64,000 bases of DNA from Balneolaceae bacterium (lineage in GTDB: Bacteria > Bacteroidota > Rhodothermia > Balneolales > Balneolaceae). Made by a program: the position numbers and the translations under genes. Below the pieces are notes generated by a model. It saw nothing but the letters and a program-made list of their open reading frames with translations, did no database searches and was not told where the DNA came from. Positions 3,968 through 54,204 of the stretch are shown in pieces (the stretch's first letter is position 1; each line of letters opens with the position of its first letter). The stretch spans positions 3,588,119-3,652,118 of the forward strand of contig CP051242.1 in assembly GCA_017795005.1 (NCBI GenBank). Direction: 5' to 3'.

Positions 3968-4411
3968 GTGAATACTTTAAGTTTTAAGACATACTCAGCA
4001 AAACCCAGCGACATCGAGAAGAAATGGGTATTAGTTGACGCAGAAGATGTGCCATTGGGTAGATTGAGTACTGTTGTAGCATCTATTTTGAGAGGCAAGA
4101 CCAAGCCCACATTCACTCCACACATGGATACCGGTGATAATGTAATTGTTATCAATGCAGAGAAAGTTAAACTGACCGGAAAAAAAATGACTGATAAAAT
4201 GTACTTCCGTCATACTTTTTACCCAGGTGGTGAGCGCTTTACCAGTGCTGAAGATATGTTGGCTAAAGATCCAACCTCGCTAGTTACTAAAGCCGTTAAG
4301 GGAATGCTCCCTAAAAACAGATTAGGTCGTAAGTTGATGACTAATCTTCGTGTGTATGCTGGTCCTGTTCATGACCAAACGGCTCAAAACCCTGAAACCA
4401 TCGAGATTTAA
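3968..4411 (+). CDS. rplM: 50S ribosomal protein L13
   Basis: Early-assembling protein of the large ribosomal subunit. The 147 aa carry the family core [20 protein letters not shown], the [15 protein letters not shown] segment and the [10 protein letters not shown] signature near residue 115. The start is GTG at 3968, which gives the usual N-terminus beginning a few residues before KTYSAKP. rpsI follows after 12 bases, the nearly universal L13-S9 pair, so the two are surely co-transcribed. Confidence 0.98.
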
Positions 4412-8630: not shown

Positions 8631-8680
8631 GAGAGGACTGGGCGTGCTCGTTTGTTCTTAGCCTTCACCGTCTTCCCTCT

Positions 8681-8725
8681 GATTTCCTGCAAGCAGGAAA
8701 TCTGTCTCCCTCCAAAGGGAGACAG
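8681..8725. repeat. Two adjacent perfect palindromes
   Basis: GATTTCCTGC (8681-8690) and GCAGGAAATC (8693-8702) make a 10-bp stem with a 2-base loop. Right after, sharing its last base, CTGTCTCCCT (8702-8711) and AGGGAGACAG (8716-8725) make another 10-bp stem. Nothing recognisable fills 8726-8857 before frr. Confidence 0.65.
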
Positions 8726-47891: not shown

Positions 47892-50222
47892 ATGAAAATA
47901 ATACTTACTCTTTTTGTTACCCTTTTTCTGAAAACCACCATGATTTTTGCACAGTCTTCAGAAGATTGGATTTTTGATGATTCCACCCTTCCTGAAGTTT
48001 ATATCATTATTGAACAGGATTCGTTAGATCAAATTTTGGACGAAGAGAACTGGTATAGCGATTACGAATATCCGGCTACATTTATTTTTAAAAGAGAAAC
48101 AGAAATAGATACTGTTTTTGAAATTGGTTTCAGAATAAGAGGAAATACCTCCAGAAGCTCGGCCAAGAAATCGTTTAAAGTTTCTTTCAATACCTTCATT
48201 CAGGGTAGAGAGTATTATGGATTAGATAAAATGAATTTAAATGGAGAGCATAACGATCCTTCCATCATTCGATCTAAACTGAGCTGGGATATTTTTAACG
48301 CTTTTGATGTGCCTGCTCCAAGAGCAAATCATGTAAAGTTGTTTATCAATGATGAGTATTATGGACTATATATTAATGTAGAACACATAGATGACGAATT
48401 TGTACAAAACAGATTCGGTGGTGAAGAGGGTAATCTGTATAAAAACCTCTGGCCTGCTGATTTATCTTATATTGATGAAAATCCTGACAGTTATAAATGG
48501 AGTCCGGACTGGGCAGATCGAAGAGTTTACGATTTGAAGACCAATAATGAGGAAGATGATTACTCAGATTTAGCATCTCTGATCAGCTTTTTAGAACATG
48601 CAAGCACATCAGAGTTTGAAAACCAGATTGAAGAGTATATCAATGTAGATGGAGTCATTCGATGGATGGCCATTGATATTTTAACCGGTAACTGGGATAA
48701 CTATTGGTATAATCAGAATAATTATTACCTCTACTTTAATACCAACGATCAGCGTTTTGAATTTATCCCTTATGATTATGACAACACTTTTGGAATAGAT
48801 TGGGTTGGTCAGGATTGGGGAATCAGAGATATCAATTCCTGGGGGCAGGATAAACCTCTTACCCGAAGAATTCTTGAAGTTGATGAATATGAAAACCGGC
48901 TTCATTTTTATATCAATAAAATAATTGATGAATATTTTAATGAAGAATTCCTTTTTCCTGAAATAGACCGGTTAAAAGCCCTTACTGAAGTTGCAGCTGA
49001 AGCCGACACTTTCAGGACTAAAGATTATGATTACGGAATTGCAGAATATCATGCTTCTTTTAGTTCAGCTTTGGGCGGACATGTTGATTATGGTCTAAAG
49101 CCTTATATCACAACCCGAATAAACTCTGCTAAAGAACAATTAAACCTTACTGAAGTATCTTCTTTTATCAGAGGCTTTAGTTATGAAATTGTAGAGTTGG
49201 AAGCTTCTGGTAAAGGAGTATTTAATTTCTATGCTGAGATTGTAAAAGATACTACTGAACGAAATTACGCTGTTTTATCTATCGGTAGTCCTGTTATAAA
49301 ATCCATTCCAACTGCGGATCTTGTCGATAATGGGACAGGGATAGATCAAATGGCTGGTGATGGTATTTATTCCGGTCAATATCAAAATTCATTAGTTGCA
49401 GACTATATTGGATTCTCGATTGCAATTTTTGATAGCATGAGTACTATTAAAACTCAAACTGAGTTTATTACCATTCATTTATCAACTAGTACAGAATCCG
49501 TTGTCATTAACGAATTCATGGCCAGTAACAGCTCTACTTTTTCGGATGAAGGAGGAGCATTCGCCGACTGGCTGGAGATTTATAATCCAACCGATTCGGT
49601 CATTTCAATGAATGGGTTCTATTTAACCGATAACCTGACCACAAAGGATAAATGGGCTTTTCCGGATACAACTATTCAACCAAATGGATACTTGCTGGTA
49701 TGGATTGATGACGATGAAAAAGAAGGTCCGATGCACGCTTCTTTTAACCTGAATAAAGACGGAGAAGCAGTTGGTATTTTCGAACAGTATGAAACGACTT
49801 TTCGAACAATAGACGCAGTAAGTTTTGGACTTCAAACGACTGACATTTCCTTTGGCAGAAATGGAGATGGAGGAGACGAATTCGTGACTTTTGATAATCC
49901 AACTCCAGGAACACCCAACGGCTTAATAAATTCTTCTGAATCAGAGAATGAAACTCCTTATGGAGTTAAACTCTTTCAGAACTATCCCAATCCATTCAAC
50001 CCAACAACAAATATTACCTTTCAATTAGAATCACCTTCAGAAATATCTCTTCAGGTTTTTACTATCGATGGGCGTTTAGTTCAAACGCTCGCAAACTCAA
50101 GATATAGTTCCGGATCTCATACTGTTCTTTTTGATGCTTTCAATTTATCCAGTGGAATGTATTTTTACCGGCTTCAAACAAAAAACCAATCCCTTACAAA
50201 GAGATTGGTTTTGATAAAGTAG
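47892..50222 (+). CDS. Exported CotH-kinase protein with lamin-tail domain and type IX tail
   Basis: Second CotH protein of the window, 776 aa. Signal peptide ending MIFAQ; CotH domain in residues 40-430 with RGNTSRSSAKKSFKVSF, YYGLYINVEHIDDEF and the metal/catalytic motifs TGNWDNYWYNQNNYYLY and IPYDYDNTFG; a beta domain; lamin-tail domain (VINEFMASNSSTFSDEGGAF); Por tail (LFQNYPNPFNPTTNITFQL, ending KRLVLIK). Domain content is a reduced version of the 1195-aa protein. Divergent from the pseudokinase gene, convergent with the TonB receptor gene (13-base gap). Confidence 0.88.
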   Translation: MKIILTLFVTLFLKTTMIFAQSSEDWIFDDSTLPEVYIIIEQDSLDQILDEENWYSDYEYPATFIFKRETEIDTVFEIGFRIRGNTSRSSAKKSFKVSFNTFIQGREYYGLDKMNLNGEHNDPSIIRSKLSWDIFNAFDVPAPRANHVKLFINDEYYGLYINVEHIDDEFVQNRFGGEEGNLYKNLWPADLSYIDENPDSYKWSPDWADRRVYDLKTNNEEDDYSDLASLISFLEHASTSEFENQIEEYINVDGVIRWMAIDILTGNWDNYWYNQNNYYLYFNTNDQRFEFIPYDYDNTFGIDWVGQDWGIRDINSWGQDKPLTRRILEVDEYENRLHFYINKIIDEYFNEEFLFPEIDRLKALTEVAAEADTFRTKDYDYGIAEYHASFSSALGGHVDYGLKPYITTRINSAKEQLNLTEVSSFIRGFSYEIVELEASGKGVFNFYAEIVKDTTERNYAVLSIGSPVIKSIPTADLVDNGTGIDQMAGDGIYSGQYQNSLVADYIGFSIAIFDSMSTIKTQTEFITIHLSTSTESVVINEFMASNSSTFSDEGGAFADWLEIYNPTDSVISMNGFYLTDNLTTKDKWAFPDTTIQPNGYLLVWIDDDEKEGPMHASFNLNKDGEAVGIFEQYETTFRTIDAVSFGLQTTDISFGRNGDGGDEFVTFDNPTPGTPNGLINSSESENETPYGVKLFQNYPNPFNPTTNITFQLESPSEISLQVFTIDGRLVQTLANSRYSSGSHTVLFDAFNLSSGMYFYRLQTKNQSLTKRLVLIK

Positions 50223-50235
50223 GATTATTGGGAAT

Positions 50236-52521
50236 CTAGAAACTCAGTTTCAGGGAAAGGAAGAAGTTTCTTCCGGCATTTACAAAATATCCCTGATCAT
50301 CATTAACTCCATCGAAGTCTACATCTACAAGTGCTCCGCTGGTATAATAGGTTTCATCCAACAGATTATTAACCTGAAGCTTTAGCTCGGCATTTTTAAA
50401 GCTAAACCCAACATTACTATCTAACACAAAACTGGAGGGTACTATATCCTCTTGGTTATTACTTAAAGCCAGGTAAGATTCACCTAAATAACGAGCCGAT
50501 ATTCCCACAGTAAAACCATTTCCAATGATATATTTCAGACGTTGGTTTATAATTACTTCTGGTGTTAAAATTGGAGTCACGTTTTCGAAAGTATTTCCAT
50601 CCCCGTCCGTAAATGATTCAATTTCAGCAGTCATTAACATTGCATTACCCGAGTAAGTTAACTCACGTATTGGGATATATGTCCAGTCCAGCTCCAATCC
50701 AGCCCGATAGCTATTTTCAATATTTCTTCGTTCCTGAACACCAAAATCTAATACTTGTCCAATAGGAGCTATTTCATCAGTAAAGTCCATATAGAACAGA
50801 TTGGCAGCTAATGCTACTGTTTGATAGTTCACTTTAAATCCTGCCTCAATATCAGTTACATATTCTGGATTAAAATTATCCCCTCTTGCTTCATTATAGT
50901 TGGAATTCAATAAACTAAATCCGCCAAAAACATCTATTCTGGTAGGCTCTCTACCCGTTCTCCCCACAGATAAATAAGAAGAAATGTTATTATTAAACCA
51001 ATAAGTAAAACCAACTCTGGGATTGATGAATGTCCATTCTTTTTGGATTTCTCCTTCTGGGTTAATTCCTAAGAAATCATAATCAGGTTGGATAGAAAGA
51101 TTCATCGTTCGAACCTGAAGGTCTCCAGTTACTAACAGTTTCTCCGTTCTCCAATCTGCTCTCCCAAACCAACTCCCCTCTTTCTTTGTTGAAGTCTCCA
51201 GATAGTATGGATTGGCGAAATCAGGCGCTATTGATTCCTCATTTGTTCGATCAAACTGGTACACATGTATTCCTGTATTAAGTTCAAGATTACTGACATT
51301 CAGCTTTCCATTGATCATTAGTCCATAGTGATCGTTTCGAAGAGGATAATTGATTTGGGCTAAGGAGGCCCCATCCTGATAGGTGAAAAAATAATCTCCG
51401 GATGCTCCGCCGTAATACAAAGAACTGGTGGTTGAAAAATCATCTGAAAATAGCCGTGTGTGTTGAATTTGTAGTAGTCGCTGACCAAAATCGTCTTTAT
51501 CGTTTTCATTCAGATAATTGACTGTTTGATCTACTTCTAAATCTGATTCGGCTACTGCTGCATAGCCTAAACCATTTTTAGAGCGAGCCTCAAAGGCATT
51601 AATTTTAACTAGGTCTTTTTCTCCAAAATAAGCTCCGGAAAAGAAAAAAGAATAGGCATCCGTGGAAGTATTATCTCTAAAACCATCGGATTGAATTTTG
51701 CTGAAATTCCCATAGAAAGACCATGAATTATCAATCATCCCTGATGAAACACTTGCATTCATTCGGGAAGTATTGAAAGAACCAATCCCATTTTCAATTG
51801 TAGCTCCACGCTTTTTATTCTCCAGATTGACTGATTCAAAGTTTACTGATCCCGCATACGAAGCTACTCCATTGGCACTTGTCCCAACACCACGTTGAAC
51901 TTGTACAGACTCAAAACTTCCGCTTATATCTGTAAAGTTAGAGAAGAACACCCCATGATCAATCATGTCATTTAATGGTACCCCATTTAACGTGAAATTA
52001 ATTCTTTCCTGACTGATTCCTCTCAATCTCATAAAGCCACCATTTACCAATTTCGTACCCGATTCAGAGTATGAAACAATTGAAGGGGTTAGCTCTTCAA
52101 GATAAAAAACAGGTTGTTCTCCATTGTACTCAGCTTGAATTTCTGCTCTGGAAATAGTGCTTTGAGTTACCGGTTCAGTATCTTCTGCCCTTACTGCTCG
52201 AATGATTAATTGCTCCATGCTGATGGTTGGTTCAAGAAAAACTTCCATCCCATCGAACGCTTCTACTTCTATTGTTTTAAATCCTATAAAGCTGATTTGA
52301 AGAAGTATTCCTTCTTCAACTCTTAACTCGAATGATCCATCAAGTCTGGTCGCCGTTCCTGATTGAGTTGAAAGCTGAACTACATTAGCTCCAACCAGTG
52401 GCTCATTGGTCTCTGCATCATATACATAGCCAGAAATAGTTTGTGAAAAGCCTTGTGAATATATGAATAGTGAAAAAAGTGTCGCCCACAGCGACATTGA
52501 AAAAAATGTTATCGAAAACAT
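50236..52521 (-). CDS. TonB-dependent receptor under TPP riboswitch (thiamine-type uptake)
   Basis: Outer-membrane importer of 761 aa: signal peptide (ending GFSQ), carboxypeptidase-like domain (ISGYVYDAETNEPLVGANVV, residues 28-110), plug (YNGEQPVFYLEELTPSIVSY; RGVGTSANGVASYAGSVNFE), barrel ending RNFFLSLKLSF. The start ATG 52521 is backed by a strong ribosome site GGAGG four bases upstream. A complete TPP riboswitch lies about 60 bases before the start, so the cargo is most likely thiamine, a phosphate ester or a precursor. Inner-membrane partners are not in the window. Confidence 0.93.
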   Translation of the reverse strand: MFSITFFSMSLWATLFSLFIYSQGFSQTISGYVYDAETNEPLVGANVVQLSTQSGTATRLDGSFELRVEEGILLQISFIGFKTIEVEAFDGMEVFLEPTISMEQLIIRAVRAEDTEPVTQSTISRAEIQAEYNGEQPVFYLEELTPSIVSYSESGTKLVNGGFMRLRGISQERINFTLNGVPLNDMIDHGVFFSNFTDISGSFESVQVQRGVGTSANGVASYAGSVNFESVNLENKKRGATIENGIGSFNTSRMNASVSSGMIDNSWSFYGNFSKIQSDGFRDNTSTDAYSFFFSGAYFGEKDLVKINAFEARSKNGLGYAAVAESDLEVDQTVNYLNENDKDDFGQRLLQIQHTRLFSDDFSTTSSLYYGGASGDYFFTYQDGASLAQINYPLRNDHYGLMINGKLNVSNLELNTGIHVYQFDRTNEESIAPDFANPYYLETSTKKEGSWFGRADWRTEKLLVTGDLQVRTMNLSIQPDYDFLGINPEGEIQKEWTFINPRVGFTYWFNNNISSYLSVGRTGREPTRIDVFGGFSLLNSNYNEARGDNFNPEYVTDIEAGFKVNYQTVALAANLFYMDFTDEIAPIGQVLDFGVQERRNIENSYRAGLELDWTYIPIRELTYSGNAMLMTAEIESFTDGDGNTFENVTPILTPEVIINQRLKYIIGNGFTVGISARYLGESYLALSNNQEDIVPSSFVLDSNVGFSFKNAELKLQVNNLLDETYYTSGALVDVDFDGVNDDQGYFVNAGRNFFLSLKLSF

Positions 52522-52565
52522 TATTCCTCCAATTAAATTAGTGATTACTTATTAATGGAGGAGGT
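52522..52565 (-). promoter_or_regulatory. Ribosome-site sequestering hairpin of the TonB receptor mRNA
   Basis: On the minus strand, TCCTCCA followed by TTAA (52562-52552 region) can pair with TTAA-T-TGGAGGA (52536-52525), which contains the Shine-Dalgarno GGAGG (52530-52526) four bases before the ATG. The stem is about 11 bp with one bulge. A competing GGAGGA lies inside the riboswitch at 52593-52598. Confidence 0.65.
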
Positions 52566-52582
52566 CAACAAAAATGCGATAT

Positions 52583-52672
52583 GCACTGGTTTTCCTCCGC
52601 CGGCATTACCCGGATCAGGTTGTAGGGTATAATCTCAGCCTCCACGTTTTTGAGGAAGCACCCCTAACCGAT
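52583..52672 (-). promoter_or_regulatory. TPP riboswitch (THI element)
   Basis: The minus strand carries the conserved core in order: GGGGTGCTTCC, GGCTGAGAT, ACCCT, AACCTGATCCGGGTAATGCC and GGCGGAGGAAA. P3 is formed by TCCTCAAAAACGTGGAGG-type arms, and P1 by GGTT (near 52668) with AACC (near 52589). It binds thiamine pyrophosphate. Located in the leader of the TonB receptor gene; the expression platform appears translational. Confidence 0.95.
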
Positions 52673-52694
52673 GGATTAAAGGTAAGAAGGTTAC

Positions 52695-52717
52695 TTGATA
52701 GTTGATAGTTGATAGTT
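52695..52717. repeat. Tandem heptamer repeat (TTGATAG)3
   Basis: TTGATAG three times in perfect tandem followed by a variant TTGAAGC. Period seven, the same as the repeats at 16472 and elsewhere. It lies upstream of the riboswitch, within or just before the transcript start. Confidence 0.85.
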
Positions 52718-52745
52718 GAAGCTTTACTTAATTTTAAGAAGAAAA

Positions 52746-52800
52746 ATCTCCCCTTGAGGGGAGATCAAAATCATTGTTCAAACGATTTTGTGAGGGGTGT
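52746..52800. repeat. Palindromic repeat ATCTCCCC-ttga-GGGGAGAT
   Basis: Perfect 8-bp stem (52746-52765), then hairpin CAAAATC (52766-52772) / GATTTTG (52784-52790), then GAGGGGTGT. Related by sequence type to the cluster at 8428-8570. The stretch 52801-52929 before the peptidase gene shows no further clear element. Confidence 0.6.
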
Positions 52801-52929
52801 TTATTTGGCATCCAACTTTGAATCGAAAAACACCCACCGTCTTGCTTCGCTTATTTAACCACAATTTTCACAAAAAATTCATAAAACCGCCTTACCTTTG
52901 AGCTTTGTCTCAACCTCAATGATCATTTT

Positions 52930-54204
52930 ATGCTTAAAAAAACTCTTCCGTTTCTACTTCTAACTATTCTAATTGGATGTGCTTCTCAATCAGAACCGAA
53001 AATTTCTCTTTCCGAGAACGTTTCTCCTGAGGATATAAAGATCCACATTTCCTTCCTTGCAGCAGATGAATTAAACGGCCGTGAAGCAGGCACTTCTGAT
53101 GAAGCAAAAGCGGCTAATTATATAGCAGATTATTTCCGGGATTTCGGTTTGGAACCTGCCGGAGATGACCGAACTTTCTTTCAGGAATTTACAATCAATA
53201 CTGCATTACTAAATAACCCTCATGCATCAGAAGGCGATACCACCGGTGAAAAAAGACTTTCAAAGAATGTGGTCGGTTTACTTCAGGGTACCGGAGATTC
53301 GGATGAAGTAATTATAATTGGAGCTCATTACGATCACCTTGGTTATGGAGATTTTGGCTCGTTGTACCGTGGCGATGTAAAACGAATTCATAATGGAGCA
53401 GATGACAATGCCTCAGGAACAGCGGGCGTGTTAGAACTAGCTCAGTATTTTTCTGAAAACCGTCCAGCTACCGATCTATTATTTATCGCTTTTTCAGGAG
53501 AGGAAATGGGACTTCTCGGTTCCGCCCATTATGCAAATAATCCAACTATTGAGTTGGAGAATGCATTAGCCATGATCAATATGGATATGATCGGGCGTAT
53601 GAATGAAGAAAAAAAACTCATAATTTTTGGAAATGGAACAGCGGAAAAATGGATAGAAATTAATACTTCAGCAAATACAGATTCACTTGATCTGGATTTG
53701 GTTGAAGATGGAACTGGTGCAAGTGATCACACCAGCTTTTACTATAAAAATATACCCGTATTACACTATTTCACTGATACCCACTCTGATTACCACCGAC
53801 CTTCGGATGATACCGAATACATCAATTTTAATGGAATTGCATTATCTCTGCATCATTTAGTTCGTGTAATTGTTCAACTAGATGAGCTTGATAAATCAGA
53901 CATGGAATTTATCGCAGTTGCAGGCGAGCAACGCCAAAGTATGCGTCTTGAGGGACCTACTCTGGGAGTACTTCCTGATTATGGATTTGATGGCAAAGGC
54001 ATGAAAATCTCAGGCACGAACGATGGTGGTGCAGCTGCAAATGCCGGTCTTCAGGGTGGTGATATTATCATTCGTTTAGGTGGCGAAGAACTGGAAGATA
54101 TTTATGGGTATATGGGAGCTCTGAATAAACTGAAAAAAGGGCAACTAACTACCGTTACTGTTTTACGGGACGGTGAAGAATTGACGCTGGACTTACAACT
54201 GTAA
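52930..54204 (+). CDS. M28-family aminopeptidase lipoprotein with PDZ domain
   Basis: Zinc exopeptidase in the cell envelope. Lipoprotein signal (LLLTILIGC, Cys near 17). Peptidase domain with metal ligands in IIGAHYDHLGYG, GADDNASGTAGVLELA, AFSGEEMGLLGS (catalytic Glu-Glu), NMDMIGR and DTHSDYHRPSDD. A C-terminal PDZ domain (residues 330-424) carries GLQGGDIIIRLGGEEL. 424 aa. A hairpin directly after the stop would end the transcript but overlaps the start of the next gene. Confidence 0.94.
   Translation: MLKKTLPFLLLTILIGCASQSEPKISLSENVSPEDIKIHISFLAADELNGREAGTSDEAKAANYIADYFRDFGLEPAGDDRTFFQEFTINTALLNNPHASEGDTTGEKRLSKNVVGLLQGTGDSDEVIIIGAHYDHLGYGDFGSLYRGDVKRIHNGADDNASGTAGVLELAQYFSENRPATDLLFIAFSGEEMGLLGSAHYANNPTIELENALAMINMDMIGRMNEEKKLIIFGNGTAEKWIEINTSANTDSLDLDLVEDGTGASDHTSFYYKNIPVLHYFTDTHSDYHRPSDDTEYINFNGIALSLHHLVRVIVQLDELDKSDMEFIAVAGEQRQSMRLEGPTLGVLPDYGFDGKGMKISGTNDGGAAANAGLQGGDIIIRLGGEELEDIYGYMGALNKLKKGQLTTVTVLRDGEELTLDLQL

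Follow-up and report, generated by a model that had tools for sequence, protein, structure and literature searches.

The window, a stretch of 64,000 nucleotides from the closed 3.75 Mb genome of a Balneolaceae bacterium, contains a TPP riboswitch aptamer upstream of a TonB-dependent receptor gene, both on the minus strand. Analysis with cmscan revealed a match to the Rfam TPP family (RF00059) at 52675..52575 that covers model positions 1-105 without truncation and scores 63.5 bits, above the gathering score of 54.3 (E 3.9e-10), with the aptamer core ending at approximately 52585. This full-length match bears out the original prediction that the aptamer is complete, and the element is the only TPP element in the genome. 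The order on the minus strand is aptamer, anti-Shine-Dalgarno (anti-SD) region (52552-52564), Shine-Dalgarno (SD) sequence (52526-52530), and receptor gene from 52521; the letters and coordinates first given for these leader elements were correct, and their strand is the minus strand. After the aptamer the leader reads CGGAGGAAAACC (aptamer 3' end), then GTTGACCTCCTCCATTAA, then TTTAATTGGAGGAATAATG.

Two strands of the aptamer are candidate partners for the anti-SD: the 5' strand of P1-P2-P3, GGUUAGGGGUGCUUCCUC (52652..52669), and GGAGGA, the 3' strand of P4 (52593..52598). The anti-SD itself, CCUCCUCC (52557..52564), is common to the ON and OFF pairings and overlaps the mask arm UCCUCCAUUAA (52552..52562), which pairs with the SD arm UUAAUUGGAGGA in the OFF hairpin. 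The SD, GGAGG, lies 4 nt 5' of the AUG start codon (52519-52521), which is enclosed in a weak hairpin, AAUGUU-UUCGAU-AACAUU (52505..52522, -2.2 kcal/mol), that folding predicts for either state (P ~0.93) and that was seen by eye in near relatives only. Mismatches occur in P4 (G-G) and in P1 (C-A), and we counted both against the explanation preferred below. Just upstream of the aptamer, the heptamer TGATAGT is repeated in tandem in 3-4 copies (52693-52720), and elsewhere in the window two whalefall-1 RNAs (RF01762; 8549-8598, plus strand, and 8670-8725, minus strand) lie in opposite orientation with approximately 70 nt between them.

The receptor ORF (52521..50236, 761 aa, designated type A) contains Plug, TonB_dep_Rec_b-barrel, and CarbopepD_reg_2 domains (Pfam), from which its fold class is clear. 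A TPP aptamer followed by a gene for Plug and barrel domains characterises OMthi/Omr (Bacteroides thetaiotaomicron BT2390; PMC5613172, PMC2211319), a system also credited to Rodionov 2002 as cited in these two papers, in which a TPP riboswitch lies directly 5' of a TonB-dependent receptor for thiamine acquisition. Our receptor differs in that it is not beside pnuT-tnr3, belongs to a lineage without ThiC, and has an SD-masking expression platform. No pnuT-tnr3 operon was found at the receptor locus, with CotH and M28 peptidase genes next to it instead; this operon commonly accompanies the receptor and does not define the system, being split in B. thetaiotaomicron.

A TPP element was present in 85 of the 92 family genomes, and all 20 close receptor orthologs in the family had a TPP aptamer immediately upstream. 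From the family TPP loci we collected 84 TPP-receptor leaders, 81 of which contained an SD, against 2/32 among other TPP-controlled genes of the same genomes, namely thiM-, thiD-, and ThiL-like genes and one for an unassigned 241-aa protein (Fisher p 5e-22, a nominal value as the sequences are related). This protein of approximately 241 aa (..DREEWFFNREHTDVYEDYYEGRYKR..) was TPP-controlled in many family genomes (L092, L096, L121, L129, L137, L140, L142, L143, and others).

Folding of the window leader with the aptamer held revealed complete sequestration of the SD by the anti-SD (P 1.0), and some form of anti-SD could be recognised in the 80 leaders examined. As a test that does not rest on energies alone, we exchanged the two arms among 24 genus-by-receptor groups: the own pairing of anti-SD and SD arms averaged -13.9 kcal/mol versus -12.05 (sd 0.32) when permuted, and 0/2000 permutations were as good. 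The CCUCC/GGAGG core was near-fixed while the flanking stem was rewritten between groups (CAUUAA/UUAAUUG, CUUCAAU/AUUGAUG, CUCUUAU/AUAAGACG), with one change within the core itself (CCUCUUU/AAGAGG). A shuffled-spacer control of the SD pairing carried no information, since GGAGG finds partners in C-rich spacers in any case. By comparison of these leaders, an SD in 81/84 and coevolving arms together indicate that the mask is not due to chance. The predicted masking of the ribosome site by the downstream TCCTCC was thus upheld, both in folding and among relatives, where the pairing is present and coevolves.

The partner of the anti-SD in the alternative state proved to be clade-specific. In simulated growing transcripts without ligand, pairing of GGAGGA with UCCUCC was predicted with P 0.84 until the SD appeared and 0.57-0.74 thereafter, and replacing GGAGGA with the consensus UAGGGA reduced the anti-SD/P4-3' pairing to P 0.12. 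Across the family, the coevolving partner was the aptamer 5' half, in which the leader element GCAAGUUNACCUCC pairs with GGUUGGGGGUGCUUGC (own pairing -16.0 versus -14.4 permuted, sd 0.33; 0/5000 permutations). This signal was seen only on a second look at the blocks, once the 5' block reached into P3 and the leader block began further upstream; with short blocks, the anti-SD showed no coevolution with either the P1/P2 5' strand (787/2000 permutations) or P4-3' (666/2000), and family-wide coevolution between the leader and P4-3' was weak (61/5000 permutations). The leaders fell into two classes. Class I comprised the 57 leaders that lack GGAGG in P4-3' and fall entirely within 16 groups, with mean pairings of -17.5 kcal/mol to the 5' half and -8.3 to P4-3'; class II comprised the 23 leaders that have it, of which 21 fall in 8 groups including that of the window, with means of -13.6 to P4-3' and -11.4 to the 5' half. 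A GCAAG element occurred in 32/57 leaders lacking GGAGG and in 0/23 with it, and the 5'-half pairing of the window leader itself was weak at -10.6 kcal/mol, compared to approximately -17.5 in class I. Since family-wide P4-3' coevolution is weak, the assignment of the ON partner in the window rests on class membership. On these comparisons, GGAGGA, which the original prediction had named as the alternative partner, is right for the window clade and is one of two solutions in the family, most relatives using the aptamer 5' half. The exchange of ON partner may represent a single event because the class II clade may have a single origin.

Without ligand, holding the aptamer was calculated to cost 4.0-5.4 kcal/mol as long as the anti-SD has not been made, 12-13 after its synthesis, and 7.3-8.4 in the full leader with the SD present. 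Because this cost changes with synthesis of the anti-SD and SD, a decision during transcription is favoured. At equilibrium the SD of the ligand-free leader was still mostly paired (0.96-0.98); given this and the costly aptamer holding, the model needs kinetic, co-transcriptional control. We infer that the SD can be accessible in the ligand-free state.

We favour, at a probability of roughly 0.8, a TPP-class riboswitch that turns off translation of an outer-membrane receptor for thiamine, in a bacterium that is probably a thiamine auxotroph. When TPP is absent, the newly transcribed anti-SD would pair with GGAGGA of the P4 3' strand, the aptamer would open, and the SD, made later, would be usable with the anti-SD already occupied. 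TPP bound during transcription would lock P4 and leave the anti-SD free to close on the SD, so that ribosomes could not start and receptor synthesis would stop. The same logic, OFF by SD sequestration with an alternative pairing that breaks the aptamer in the absence of TPP, is known from E. coli thiM and tbpA (thiB) (PMC11487190). E. coli tbpA uses an anti-P1 stem (PMC11487190), whereas here the anti-SD would pair with P4-3' in the window clade or with the aptamer 5' half (P2-P3) in other clades; our switch further differs from thiM and tbpA in its SD-poor host and in an extra coding hairpin, which would be part of the platform and most likely imposes SD-dependent initiation or terminates untranslated RNA.

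This hairpin was picked up by a terminator scan in the first codons of the receptor gene, where the terminator-like TGTCGCTGTGGGCGACA (52480..52496; +26 to +42; -8.2 kcal/mol), predicted in both states with P 0.93, is followed by CTTTTTTC at 52472-52479. Among the 84 family TPP-receptor genes, 61 had a hairpin of <=-4 kcal/mol in codons 4-25, usually starting at approximately +20 to +36, versus 11.4-11.9 expected from synonymous resampling and 25.3 (at most 32 over 40 trials) under permutation of synonymous codons within the segment; by group, the excess gave a Wilcoxon p of 4.6e-5 (25 groups). The controls were flat or nearly so: 33 versus 28.5 expected in the next 81 nt, 30 versus 26.4 in nt 300-381, 3/27 versus 4.0 in other TPP-controlled genes, 10/72 versus 7.5 in signal-peptide-like ORFs, and 5/21 versus 2.9 in non-TPP receptors of this genome. 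TPP receptors in the rest of the phylum showed a mild excess (19/48 versus 12.7). The excess over synonymous nulls, together with these controls, indicates selection on the hairpin at the RNA level and a link to this switch.

Its position just past the initiating ribosome suits prevention of initiation without an SD, an effect like that of START, or coupled termination. In START, structure-assisted initiation (PMC7664666), a stable coding structure likewise lies downstream of approximately +16 to +19; it is proposed to raise start-site selection and has no riboswitch link, and the corresponding role of our hairpin is putative. In the case of coupled termination, the hairpin and its T-rich tail would fire when TPP keeps ribosomes off the transcript, a translating ribosome otherwise covering the hairpin. 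The window sequence has the right form for this, and a terminator pattern in the first 111 nt occurred in 42/84 TPP-receptor genes, where 5.6 were expected from resampling and 9.4 from permuting synonymous codons, and in 6/236 other ORFs of this genome; moreover, mRNA levels of E. coli thiM and tbpA drop secondarily to blocked translation (PMC11487190). However, T-richness after the hairpin did not exceed the codon demand of the signal peptide (4.02 versus 3.81 of 8, p 0.09), for which reason we do not claim a terminator, and many of the selected hairpins lack a T run. We consider coupled termination plausible but rather unlikely as a main output, and it could act together with SD masking.

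The translational switch relies on an SD in a genome that makes almost no use of one, a point against it, and its ribosomes may or may not read the SD. The 16S tail GGATCACCTCCTTT is intact in this genome, and the receptor SD forms a duplex of -9.3 kcal/mol with it. Over 266 ORFs in 464 kb of this genome, GGAGG was found ahead of 1.1% of starts, and duplexes with the 16S tail averaged -2.04 versus -2.00 at control positions, compared to -5.74 versus -2.77 for 50 kb of E. coli in the same pipeline; starts were taken as the first ATG, which dilutes any SD signal, and the E. coli control with the same flaw still showed one. In 13 relative loci with 128 ORFs, 11 of the 14 SD matches were the TPP receptors themselves. 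Use of an SD by the receptors of this genome in general was rejected, since a GGAGG-type SD preceded only 1 of 26 Plug-domain receptors, the TPP-switched one. One SusC-like gene carried a AGAGGTGA site (-11.2 kcal/mol), and rpsU of this genome had no clearly extended SD (AAAGGAAGTGAGGCTCAATG). In Flavobacterium, autoregulation of rpsU (bS21) similarly keeps a strong SD for regulation in a lineage without general SD use (PMC9976891), although that gene is controlled by ribosome composition and not by a ligand-binding RNA as here.

GGAGG might be no ribosome signal at all and serve only as one strand of a hairpin that conceals the start region, in a lineage whose initiation needs no SD. The near-identical genome-wide and control duplex energies favour this, as do descriptions of Bacteroidia without SD use, in which the ribosomal anti-SD is occluded (PMC9976891, PMC8710568); in addition, CCUCC must match the aptamer strands too, which could by itself fix GGAGG. 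On the other hand, GGAGG is near-invariant and usually lies 3-6 nt 5' of the start. That its core stays fixed while the flanks change argues against a pure blocking stem, whose core would drift too, and we judge this explanation rather unlikely. Ribosomes of this phylum are thought to ignore SD sequences, hence the interest of the mask: its conservation and coevolution imply that either the ribosomes of this order are able to read an SD when they meet one, or GGAGG is retained for some different purpose. We tentatively propose, with less than even confidence, that the SD is reserved for the riboswitch in an SD-poor lineage, that the selected hairpin imposes SD-dependent initiation or terminates untranslated RNA and so makes the switch strict, and that the partner releasing the mask has been swapped between the aptamer halves.

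As for the cargo, ThiC was found in 0/89 family genomes searched, with controls positive in 13/14. ThiE was not found in this genome, where the sole match was sub-threshold and was identified by sequence as HisF. A thiamine pyrophosphokinase (TPK) and a PnuC-family transporter are encoded away from the receptor locus. With ThiC and ThiE missing and TPK and the PnuC family present, the organism, a marine-type bacterium, probably needs external thiamine and is a probable auxotroph; the receptor is its only TPP-switched gene. Thiamine uptake is accordingly the probable role of the receptor and the best reading of it, in support, on gene content, of the thiamine-type uptake first suggested. The cargo could instead be another TPP-linked compound (the pyrimidine precursor HMP, thiazole, TPP, or a thiamine analogue), since TPP control says only that the cargo feeds TPP, and some relatives have thiM-, thiD-, and ThiL-like genes under TPP control, as read from their sequences. 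However, the genome encodes TPK, which acts on thiamine, and lacks the ThiE needed to join precursors, making a different cargo quite unlikely.

Control at the level of transcription, through an intrinsic terminator in the leader as in TPP-receptor leaders of other lineages of the phylum, is largely refuted and very improbable here, because the terminator scan found none between aptamer and start in the window and only 5/84 in the family. Outside the order, TPP-receptor leaders (L200-L278) often had an intrinsic terminator (GCCGTTTT..AACGGCTTTTTT) or lacked an SD; the expression platform therefore differs by lineage.

TPP-controlled TonB receptors in Bacteroidota (PMC2211319, PMC5613172) and translational TPP switches in E. 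coli (PMC11487190) are already known, while the action of TPP switches in Bacteroidetes has been called uncertain (PMC5613172). Among the papers searched, none was found that joins TPP riboswitch, TonB-dependent, and Shine-Dalgarno. What is new is an SD mask in an SD-poor lineage, with two exchangeable ON partners and a coding hairpin specific to TPP-receptor genes, as well as the interchange, at a single syntenic position, of two distant receptor types under a common switch. The family also offers an example of a riboswitch whose ON partner has changed although aptamer and OFF hairpin were retained, as well as an element inside coding regions that annotation would miss.

The interchange was evident from comparison with congeners, which carry a type B receptor, 31-33% identical overall to that of the window, at the same syntenic place beside the M28-peptidase gene; in one genome (G040) it lies between the M28-peptidase and CotH genes. 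Where present, neighbouring gene products were 67-85% identical to those of the window. In the nearer congener, identity to the window was 89% for the leader, 73% for the first 45 residues, and 38% for the barrel; barrels of the same type in other genera were 69-79% identical to it. Two or three further genera showed this pattern too, with identities of 81-91% in the leader and 31-38% in the barrel. By these identities, the switch and signal peptide are kept while the receptor is replaced; phage or bacteriocin pressure is our guess as to the cause. Types A and B swap behind the same TPP leader at 47892-54201 of the window and at loci L309-L312 and L316-L319. In another genome, back-to-back TPP riboswitches (G062:C142:3981-4079, minus strand, and 4204-4296, plus strand) precede divergently oriented receptor genes, one of type B and the other of type A.

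Finally, the Balneolaceae contain a TPP-like RNA subclass (L322-L340; e.g., G017:C21:26422-26518, G015:C1:1036444-1036543, and G058:C204:16397-16499) that lacks a consistent downstream gene and looks like a free-standing RNA. Its members have a long P1 (GCCAACGGTT..AACCGTTGGC), ACTTGA in place of ACCTGA, and AAGGA in P4, and they are often followed on the 3' side by a U run or terminator.
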